A stretch of DNA of 8,322 nt from Thermococci archaeon (GTDB taxonomy: Archaea > Hadarchaeota > B88-G9): contig QMUK01000055.1 of the NCBI GenBank assembly GCA_003660555.1, positions 1-8,322 of the forward strand, written 5' to 3'. Shown in pieces: positions 3,084 to 5,415 of this stretch. Numbering within the stretch: the stretch's first letter is position 1; every line of letters starts with the position of its first letter. Position numbers and translations under genes: made by a program. The notes below the pieces were generated by a model. It made no database searches. It saw nothing but the letters and a program-made list of their open reading frames with translations, and was not told where the DNA came from.

Positions 3084-3563
3084 CTAGTTGGCTTGCACAC
3101 CCTCTTCTCCCTCTTCTTCTGCTTTCCCTTCCTCCTCTTCGAGGACACTCTTTCTCTTCTTCCTGTAAAATACTTTGTTCTTGAGGTGTTTTCTCTCTAC
3201 TAGTCCTAGACTATCCAAGAGCTGCAGTATCAATATGACGTAGGTCCTACTCAATCCAGAGGACTCAGTTATCTCCTTGGCATCCATCCACTCCTCTTCG
3301 CTTATGCTCTCGTAAACTTCTGCGAGTGGTCCCTTGAGAAGAGAGGACAAATCAGTGGTCTCTGAATCTCTCGAGATTCCAGACAGGATTTCCTCTATTT
3401 GCATTGAAAGTTCGACTATGACCTCCTGTTTTGCTATTTCCAATTTCTTCTCTAGCTCAGCCACTCTTAGCTTCAATTCATTTATTTCCGACAGAACAGA
3501 GGAAAATCCATTATCTAGGTCTTCCTTCCTCGCGATGCCTCGCATTAAGAAGGACAACACCAA
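3084..3563 (-). CDS. Coiled-coil winged-helix protein, putative transcription regulator
   Basis: From the chosen start this encodes about 159 residues. Residues about 22-62 form a heptad-rich helix likely to be a coiled coil (LSEINELKLRVAELEKKLEI), suggesting a dimer. Residues about 77-135 look like a winged helix: DAKEITESSGLSRTYV as helix-turn-helix, LLDSLGLVER as the end of the recognition region, and KNKVFYRKK as a wing. The tail is highly acidic (LEEEEGKAEEEGEEG). A longer frame starts at TTG 3581, but GGAGG at 3571-3575 lies 7 bases before TTG 3563 and 10 before GTG 3560, so translation probably starts at one of those. It follows the thioredoxin-like gene on the same strand with a gap of 44 bases, so the two may be co-transcribed. 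The gap holds phased GTTNAAC boxes that the protein might bind. No specific family recognised; the DNA-binding role is inferred from fold. Confidence 0.78.
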   Translation of the reverse strand: MVLSFLMRGIARKEDLDNGFSSVLSEINELKLRVAELEKKLEIAKQEVIVELSMQIEEILSGISRDSETTDLSSLLKGPLAEVYESISEEEWMDAKEITESSGLSRTYVILILQLLDSLGLVERKHLKNKVFYRKKRKSVLEEEEGKAEEEGEEGVQAN

Positions 3564-3570
3564 TGTGATG

Positions 3571-3575
3571 CCTCC
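3571..3575 (-). promoter_or_regulatory. Shine-Dalgarno site deciding the winged-helix gene start
   Basis: GGAGG on the minus strand lies inside the longer frame that begins at TTG 3581, which it therefore argues against. Spacing is 7 bases to TTG 3563 and 10 to GTG 3560. Confidence 0.65.
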
Positions 3576-3633
3576 TTTCAACGTGGTTGAACTGGTTTAA
3601 CTGTGGTTCAATAGTAGTTGAACCGAGTTAAAC
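3576..3633. promoter_or_regulatory. Six phased GTTNAAC-type boxes, candidate operator array
   Basis: On the plus strand, boxes begin at 3576 (TTTCAAC), 3586 (GTTGAAC), 3595 (GTTTAAC), 3606 (GTTCAAT), 3617 (GTTGAAC) and 3627 (GTTAAAC). Four are perfect GTTNAAC palindromes and two have one mismatch. Start-to-start steps are 10, 9, 11, 11 and 10 bases, about one helical turn each, so the boxes lie on one face of the DNA. The array abuts the winged-helix gene's Shine-Dalgarno site and covers the last codons of the upstream gene. Binding by the winged-helix protein is inferred. Confidence 0.6.
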
Positions 3634-3634
3634 C
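3594..3634. repeat. Nested inverted repeat at the gene junction
   Basis: The outer arms GGTTTAACT (3594-3602) and AGTTAAACC (3626-3634) are perfect 9-base complements. The inner arms GGTTCAA (3605-3611) and TTGAACC (3618-3624) are perfect 7-base complements around TAGTAG. The RNA would fold as a 9+7 bp hairpin with a small 2x1 internal loop. It spans the stop codon of the thioredoxin-like gene. With no following T-run on either strand it is a weak terminator candidate; it could instead be a processing or attenuation element, or a by-product of the palindromic boxes. Confidence 0.7.
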
Positions 3635-5368
3635 TTTCCACCTCTCGAGTACATCTCTCTTAGTGGGCAAGCCTCCAGGTCTATTGGCAGATATTTCCAC
3701 GATGGATTCAGTTCTCAGTAGCTCTCTCCTAGTTCTCCTTTCTCTCTTAGAAGCAATCAGTATTAACCCTAGGAGAGAAATGGCCAAGATAGAGAGAATC
3801 AAATCGTAAATAGACAAATAGTTATTTTTCGGGGAGATTCTTCTCTCCTTCACGGGAACTTCTTTCCCCTTCCACAAACACTTGAACTCTTGGCTAACTT
3901 TTATCCTCTCTCCTGGAAGTAGTACGGTCTTCTTTCCATTGGACAACAACTCACAACTCTCAGATCCACTGTTCACCAAGAAGCGCTCCTCCTTCTTCAT
4001 CCACGGCAAGGGACCTCCGAGATGCACACTTTCCAGTACTAACTCTGGCTTACCCTCTATTTCTCTACTTATGGGATTGGAGAACTCCTTGAATCTCCTT
4101 CCAGAAAAGGAGTAGTCTACTTCAACTCCCTCTATGAATTTCTCATTCGGAGGATCGTACTCCCATTCTACAGACTCTCCTGGGGGCAAGTCTCCGAGAT
4201 GAATTTCGTCTCCAGTTGAGAGTATTAGAACTAGGTCCCTAGCAGTACTGCCACCCTTGTTGAACACCCTAACCAATACTTTTTCGTCAAGGAGTTCTTG
4301 TTTGACATCTAAAATGGGTGGATTCTCTATTGCTTCAACCCAAACACCGTCAGATACGAATTCCTCTCCCAGATGATAAACTATCCAAGAAATTCTATAT
4401 TTTCCTGGAGTATTAAAAGATATAGGGAACTTATGCTCCATAGACTCTCCCGGGAAAAGAGTGAAATCGCCTATTTCTAATTCCCTGGAACTTTCCCCGT
4501 TTATTCTGAGTTTCAGTTTGTATTCCAAGTTCACTGGCAATAGGTTCAACAAAGTTAAACTGACCTCTACACTCTCCCCGACAGGAACTACGCTTTTGTC
4601 AACTCTCTCCCAATACTCCCACTTCTCTATTTCAACTCTTTCAACCTTTGAGTTTTGAGGAGCTAGGATTTCCAAATTTACTTTATTTTCAAAGACATTT
4701 AGAACTCTGATCACCAGAGAATCGAGAACCTCTACCCATTCTCCCGTTCTGACATCCATGACCTTATATCCACCCTCGAATTTCAGTAGAAATTCCGTAG
4801 TGTCCTCAGAGACTTTCAAAGGAGAAATGGACACACCATCTACTCTTATGCCACTCCATTCCTCTAGCTCACCGGAATACACCTTGACCAAACCATCGAA
4901 GGGTACTTCACTCACTTCCTTCTCAATTCTTGGGCCAGGGAGAATGTATTTCGAGTGATTCCAATCTTTGACTTCTTCTTTCGAGTGACGCTCAGACTCT
5001 TTAGAGATCCCACCACACTCGACTATGGCACTCCTTAGGTCATCTATCCTCCAATCCGTATTGGGCAATCCGGAGAATCTCCTTCCACACACATCTATGG
5101 TTGGTATCATGGTTATTCCGTATTTTAGTAGCTCATCTAGACTTTTACCACTGAGATTAATTTTCCTTAGTATTATTTTCCCATTAGATTCACTCACTAG
5201 TCCCAGTAAAATTGCCTCTACTTCTGAACACCTCTTACAGCACCCAGTAGTATAAAATTTGACCTCTACGTGATCCTTCAGGTTTGAGAGTTCCGAATCT
5301 GCTGTGGCCATGTTGGGAAGCGTCACGCATGCACATACCAGTAGAAACAGCAATAACGAAGTCCTCAA
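3608..5368 (-). CDS. Membrane-tethered extracytoplasmic thioredoxin-like protein with Ig-like domains
   Basis: The chosen start gives 586 residues. A signal peptide covers about 1-24 (RTSLLLFLLVCACVTLPNMATA). Residues about 34-118 look like a thioredoxin/glutaredoxin fold: VEVKFYTTGCCKRC supplies Cys43, Cys44 and Cys47, and IPTIDVCG supplies the expected cis-Pro (Pro89) plus Cys94. About 240-510 reads as several beta-sandwich, CARDB/NEW3-like segments with repeated phrases such as FPGES and PPGES. One membrane helix (521-540, LILSILAISLLGLILIA) is followed by a basic tail, KRERRTRR, of 46 residues. The sensor or catalytic domain would therefore face outside and the tail inside. The frame also has an ATG at 5407, but a TATA element at 5416-5429 and GGAGGGGG 4 bases before TTG 5368 (7 counting from GGAGG) favour the TTG. 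It could be a disulfide oxidoreductase, a redox-sensing membrane protein or a receptor; function is unproven. Confidence 0.83.
   Translation of the reverse strand: MRTSLLLFLLVCACVTLPNMATADSELSNLKDHVEVKFYTTGCCKRCSEVEAILLGLVSESNGKIILRKINLSGKSLDELLKYGITMIPTIDVCGRRFSGLPNTDWRIDDLRSAIVECGGISKESERHSKEEVKDWNHSKYILPGPRIEKEVSEVPFDGLVKVYSGELEEWSGIRVDGVSISPLKVSEDTTEFLLKFEGGYKVMDVRTGEWVEVLDSLVIRVLNVFENKVNLEILAPQNSKVERVEIEKWEYWERVDKSVVPVGESVEVSLTLLNLLPVNLEYKLKLRINGESSRELEIGDFTLFPGESMEHKFPISFNTPGKYRISWIVYHLGEEFVSDGVWVEAIENPPILDVKQELLDEKVLVRVFNKGGSTARDLVLILSTGDEIHLGDLPPGESVEWEYDPPNEKFIEGVEVDYSFSGRRFKEFSNPISREIEGKPELVLESVHLGGPLPWMKKEERFLVNSGSESCELLSNGKKTVLLPGERIKVSQEFKCLWKGKEVPVKERRISPKNNYLSIYDLILSILAISLLGLILIASKRERRTRRELLRTESIVEISANRPGGLPTKRDVLERWKGLTRFNYY
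4544..4560. repeat. Second GTTNAAC pair within the thioredoxin-like gene
   Basis: GTTCAAC at 4544 and GTTAAAC at 4554 repeat the box of the 3576-3633 array with the same 10-base step. A lone GTTGAAC also occurs at 4259. A motif with six fixed bases is expected about twice in a window this size, so the pair may be chance. Confidence 0.3.
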
Positions 5369-5372
5369 GTGA

Positions 5373-5380
5373 CCCCCTCC
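5373..5380 (-). promoter_or_regulatory. Shine-Dalgarno site deciding the thioredoxin-like gene start
   Basis: GGAGGGGG on the minus strand ends 4 bases before TTG 5368; counted from GGAGG the spacing is 7. It lies within the longer frame from ATG 5407, which would add 13 residues including WPGGG before an otherwise typical signal peptide. Confidence 0.7.
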
Positions 5381-5415
5381 CGGCCAGAGCCTTAATATCA
5401 TCTTCATCTCCAGGG

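Follow-up and report, generated by a model that had tools for sequence, protein, structure and literature searches.

What is the function of a row of short palindromes, spaced by about one turn of the DNA helix, that ends directly at the ribosome-binding site of a small archaeal gene? The window analyzed here, that is, the whole stretch of 8,322 nt, is an entire contig of a genome of 1.295 Mb in 150 contigs. The sequence-only reading of this window had described six GTTNAAC-type boxes at steps of 9–11 bases, four of them perfect and two with one mismatch, that terminate at the Shine-Dalgarno motif of a gene for a coiled-coil winged helix-turn-helix (wHTH) protein. All six boxes were re-found (Table 1), with 34 of the 36 core bases fitting GTTNAAC, and the GGAGG motif of the wHTH gene immediately adjoins box 1. 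The steps between successive boxes are 10, 9, 11, 11 and 10 bp, with a best-fit period of about 10.2–10.3 bp. On the minus strand, the array spans the region from the last codons of the 599 aa gene to AAAGGAGG (3571–3578). The boxes had also been placed within the last codons of the preceding gene, which applies to boxes 4–6 (the stop codon is at 3608–3610), whereas boxes 1–3 are intergenic. The array, its phasing and its position are thus established.

Table 1. Features of the window around the box array (positions are those of the window).
Feature	Position	Strand	Remarks
Coiled-coil winged-helix gene, 159 aa from TTG 3563	3084–3563	−	wHTH at about 3162–3323; Pfam TrmB barely above cut-off
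Shine-Dalgarno GGAGG of the wHTH gene	3571–3575	−	seen in the sequence
Box 1, TTTCAAC	3576–3582		one mismatch; shares bases with the A-run of the Shine-Dalgarno region
Box 2, GTTGAAC	3586–3592		perfect
Box 3, GTTTAAC	3595–3601		perfect
Box 4, GTTCAAT	3606–3612		one mismatch; runs over the stop codon of the preceding gene
Box 5, GTTGAAC	3617–3623		perfect
Box 6, GTTAAAC	3627–3633		perfect
Nested inverted repeat/potential hairpin	3594–3634	−	GGTTTAACT pairs with AGTTAAACC, GGTTCAA with TTGAACC
Preceding gene, 599 aa, thioredoxin-like N-terminal domain	3608–5407	−	last codons (KGLTRFNYY) carry boxes 4–6
Exact pair GTTCAACAAAGTTAAAC, 10 bp step	4544–4560		within the preceding gene

At the centers of the boxes, each of the four bases occurs (C, G, T, C, G and A), and the spacers vary, while the cores are kept. 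This pattern bears on the simplest explanation, namely, that the array is a degenerate tandem repeat that arose by slippage and has no function. The period near 10 and the TG-rich spacers are compatible with such an origin, and Tandem Repeats Finder reported two weak arrays of 9 and 10 bp. However, slippage creates no palindromes with variable centers, the changes hit the center bases and the spacers rather than the palindromic cores, and arrays recur before related genes, as described below. A decaying tandem repeat is therefore disfavored, and we consider a functionless origin highly improbable.

The rarity of the array is established as well. We scanned 381 kb of the genome together with the window (389 kb) for chains of all 64 palindromes of the type NNN-N-N'N'N' at steps of 9–11. 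The array reached a score of 30, compared to 12 for the next unrelated chain, an AAA-type run of four boxes with four mismatches. GTTNAAC occurs in this genome at a density of 0.17 per kb, so that, by simple arithmetic, about 5e-4 occurrences per genome are expected for the four perfect boxes alone. A search of the genome for equal GTTNAAC clusters had been suggested as a check; pattern searches of the whole genome found none larger than pairs, and the array is unique in the 389 kb. Stretches with a period of 11 elsewhere in this genome appear to be of low complexity.

The pairs themselves raise the question of whether the boxes belong to another regulator of this genome rather than to the adjacent wHTH protein. 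Three further exact GTTSAACNNAGTTAAAC pairs are present, one of them in the preceding gene (Table 1), where the same arithmetic predicts about 0.04 per exact spacing; the remaining two are located at L003:1501–1517 and L004:275–291. However, all three pairs lie inside coding sequences or at the end of a gene (the one on C112 in an arsR gene, the one on C93 at a gene end), and the arrays found in relatives precede the same kind of gene, so that recognition by a different regulator appears quite unlikely. A genome-wide regulon of paired boxes was rejected because there are just these three other pairs at that spacing, all of them coding or at a gene end. Paired boxes were not enriched across the phylum either.

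An alternative of another kind is that the functional object is not DNA but an mRNA stem-loop joining the two genes, which would act on processing, termination or translation. Indeed, the transcript could form a nested hairpin of 16 pairs (Table 1) plus a 6 bp hairpin that touches the Shine-Dalgarno motif. In the pairs 3/6, 4/5 and 1/2, each box complements the other down to the center base and partly into the flanks. The minus-strand fold has a z-score of −3.2, and in a GC-corrected ranking the minus-strand hairpin is among the top 10 of 97,164 windows. However, in the same ranking the plus strand, which is non-coding here, folds better still and is the strongest of all windows, and any two boxes can pair because each box is itself a palindrome. 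Two complementary shuffles separate the boxes from the hairpin. When the boxes were fixed and the rest was shuffled, equally good folds arose in 4.5–5.3% of the trials (p about 0.05). A hairpin has no need of arms that are palindromes of a common core: when the hairpins were fixed and the pair identities were shuffled, 0 of 20,000 trials reached 34 of 36 matching core bases. In addition, the boxes of the Micrarchaeota described below are evenly phased across the whole leader, with no requirement for a nested-hairpin layout. The shuffle comparison led us to reject an RNA hairpin as the primary feature: the boxes are primary, and the hairpin is largely a by-product of the palindromes, with a weak residual signal. 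We regard a stem-loop as the functional object as an improbable alternative.

The gene at which the boxes finish is a regulator-like gene with candidate sites at its own leader. It probably starts at TTG 3561–3563, 7 nt past GGAGG, rather than at TTG 3581, because the latter would place the Shine-Dalgarno motif inside the gene. The protein contains a TrmB-type wHTH domain (PF01978, 26.8 bits compared to a cut-off of 25.6), which occupies residues 87–140 of the longer reading (165 aa) and is followed by a charged tail alone. Neither a C-terminal effector-binding domain nor any cysteine, and hence no CxxC redox switch, is present in these 165 aa. A single-sequence structure model yielded a confident long N-terminal helix and a poor wHTH, with a mean pLDDT of 62.9. 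The gene is surrounded by genes for a thioredoxin-like protein, a subtilase-like protein, DUF434/DUF5616 and a radical SAM protein. The thioredoxin-like part of the preceding gene's product contains a CCKRC motif; beyond it, this protein has an extended middle region and, close to its C-terminus, a hydrophobic stretch. A convincing TATA box was not seen beside the array, CTACTATTGAA around 3612 being a weak candidate at most, and the wHTH gene and the preceding gene may share a transcript.

The genus and the order of the window are each represented by one genome. Neither the 28 genomes of the phylum nor the genome contigs, viral contigs or phages yielded a relative of the wHTH gene; for the preceding gene, no full-length relative was detected in the phylum, and matches elsewhere were confined to the thioredoxin part. 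A search of 394 archaeal genomes yielded nine weak foreign matches to the wHTH protein, and all nine loci were scanned for palindrome arrays. Only one of them, L043, has an outstanding array adjoining its gene. This locus, from another archaeal phylum (one genome in that phylum), encodes a 168 aa coiled-coil wHTH protein of the same build, whose predicted recognition helix begins with R-S/T-Y-V, as does that of the window protein. Its array consists of five perfect AACNGTT boxes at 1982, 1993, 2004, 2022 and 2033 (steps of 11, 11, 18 and 11) that end directly before the Shine-Dalgarno motif, downstream of the TATA-like CTTAAATATT, and no equal array was found in 133 kb of that genome. Outside the span of these five boxes (1982–2039), a sixth box is present at 2118–2124, over the TATA-like element of a divergent gene. 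The matches at L040 and L041 are wHTH proteins of another build. No array was visible at L051, which has a similar build, or, by eye, at the members L064, L069 and L166 of a further coiled-coil wHTH family, the last of which belongs to the phylum of the window. The coiled-coil wHTH architecture alone, therefore, does not predict an array. Two other repeat arrangements were observed in this survey: a cluster of TGTCAA/TTGACA half-sites, not evenly phased, before another coiled-coil wHTH gene (L079:2030–2100), and a closely spaced pair of TTTAGGCACTACA direct repeats, which precedes the start of the MGLFTS gene by about 100 nt (L054).

A two-sequence profile was used to collect further proteins with a coiled coil and a C-terminal wHTH. 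In a profile comparison, the wHTH of one group from Micrarchaeota matched that of the window group with a probability of 97.9%; the bridge between the two groups is a domain-level wHTH match plus a shared build, not orthology, and wHTH domains occur everywhere. Of the 164 genomes of one order, 145 carry the gene, nearly always as a single copy, and so do all 51 of the 51 good ones; no named protein family was found to fit it. The group includes Ca. Micrarchaeum harzensis, with a chromosome of 989,838 bp (PMC8975820), and Ca. Mancarchaeum acidiphilum Mia14, with a chromosome of 952,257 bp (PMC5498576). Here, the boxes read TCRYGA (a palindrome with a variable center) and are located at 11 bp steps between TATA and the start codon. 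At least four boxes in one 11 bp register, and up to about eight, were observed in 38 of 50 upstream regions (L116–L165), compared to 0 of 50 for steps of 7–10 or 12–15, and nearly all spacings of exact boxes were 11, 22, 33, 44 or 55. The mean autocorrelations at lags 11/22/33 were 0.44/0.43/0.41 for family f10 and 0.42/0.39/0.37 for f29, whereas 126 other genes from these loci showed no such period upstream (about 0.27–0.28). In the 180 kb sampled from M. harzensis, no stretch has a stronger lag-11 signal than the region upstream of the wHTH gene. Box spacing that is kept while the flanks drift, a pattern to be sought in relatives according to the sequence-only reading, was therefore seen in this remote group rather than in the lineage of the window itself. 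Altogether, it is established that phased arrays also precede genes of the same build that are only distantly related, with box words that differ by group: GTTNAAC in the window, AACNGTT at L043 and TCRYGA in Micrarchaeota. No description of the order-wide 11 bp arrays was found in the literature searched.

Several known systems resemble the locus in part. The MraZ boxes of the bacterial dcw operon are an autoregulated array of short boxes at steps of about 10 bp; however, they are direct repeats, not palindromes, and the protein fold is unrelated. ParR, a ribbon-helix-helix protein, binds the 10–11 bp repeats of parC on plasmid R1 and autoregulates the operon that encodes it. Yet, the parC repeats are direct repeats (PMC9426499) and are accompanied by the gene for the ParM filament, whereas the window has neither a filament nor a Walker ATPase neighbor. 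The SurR operator of Thermococcales (GTTn3AAC and GTTn3AACn5GTT; the protein carries CxxC; PMC12162507) shares the GTT/AAC half-sites with the window, SurR is an archaeal wHTH regulator of its own gene, as proposed for the window protein, and a thioredoxin-like protein is encoded next door in the window. However, the window boxes have a center of one base instead of three, six phased boxes replace a single one, and the protein is cysteine-free; membership in the SurR system was rejected because the boxes are GTTnAAC, not GTTn3AAC, and CxxC is missing. TrmB sites are other inverted repeats, for example TACTN3AGTA or TATCACN5GTGATA (PMC4158304), and the window protein has no effector domain, in contrast to TrmB; shared features are the wHTH just above the Pfam cut-off and, putatively, coiled-coil dimerization and autoregulation, the latter having been proposed for Tgr. 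The locus was filed under neither SurR nor TrmB because the defining features of each fail.

The reading that we favor, and hold to be rather likely, is that the array is a cooperative operator, most likely a repressing one, by which the wHTH protein would control the gene that encodes it. The wHTH would read the short palindromic boxes, and dimers or higher oligomers joined by the N-terminal coiled coil could be loaded next to each other along a single DNA face, with a box at roughly every turn. Once enough protein has accumulated, the region before the start codon would be covered and the gene would be shut down. At L043 and in Micrarchaeota, the boxes would lie over the expected start site and the leader, where regulators of the TrmB type repress (for the principle, see PMC4158304). 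Since the window shows no convincing TATA box and the wHTH gene may be co-transcribed, the sign of regulation there is an inference; binding by the window protein and cooperativity are predicted. An autoregulatory operator had already been suggested for the window, and it is the best-supported explanation, given the recurrence of phased arrays before other coiled-coil wHTH genes and the lack of equal clusters in the genome; the architecture of the protein by itself is not predictive.

Alternatively, the boxes might resemble parC, the site of ParR, and serve mainly for the centromere-like loading or nucleation of a segregation or architectural protein, autoregulation being a secondary effect; a filament or nucleation site had also been named in the sequence-only reading. 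Such a site would fit the length of the phased arrays (up to about eight boxes), the step of 11.0 bp in Micrarchaeota rather than 10.5 bp, and the short hydrophobic N-terminus with which some members begin, and the presence of the gene in all good genomes of the Micrarchaeota order suggests a core role. However, no partner gene of the ParA, ParM or TubZ kind was noticed next to the wHTH gene of the window, at L043 or at the two loci read in Micrarchaeota, and a location between TATA and the start codon is typical of an operator, so that we consider a primary role in loading unlikely.

To our knowledge, most operators of archaea consist of one inverted repeat or a pair of them. Rows of six to eight short palindromes, one helical turn apart, upstream of coiled-coil wHTH genes from different archaeal phyla would point to cooperative DNA loading, a mode for which no description was found in the literature searched. 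A far-reaching and doubtful extension is that coiled-coil wHTH proteins of this kind form a wide, unnamed group in archaea, which belongs to the core genes of at least one order of Micrarchaeota and polymerizes side by side on one-turn rows of short palindromes whose centers are free. Each lineage would have a box word of its own, and the array at each protein's own gene would serve both as an operator and as the place of nucleation for an architectural or segregation complex. Among the leads, the order-wide array of Micrarchaeota lends itself best to a direct test, since the gene is conserved, the array keeps 11 bp steps and the genomes of co-cultured strains are complete.
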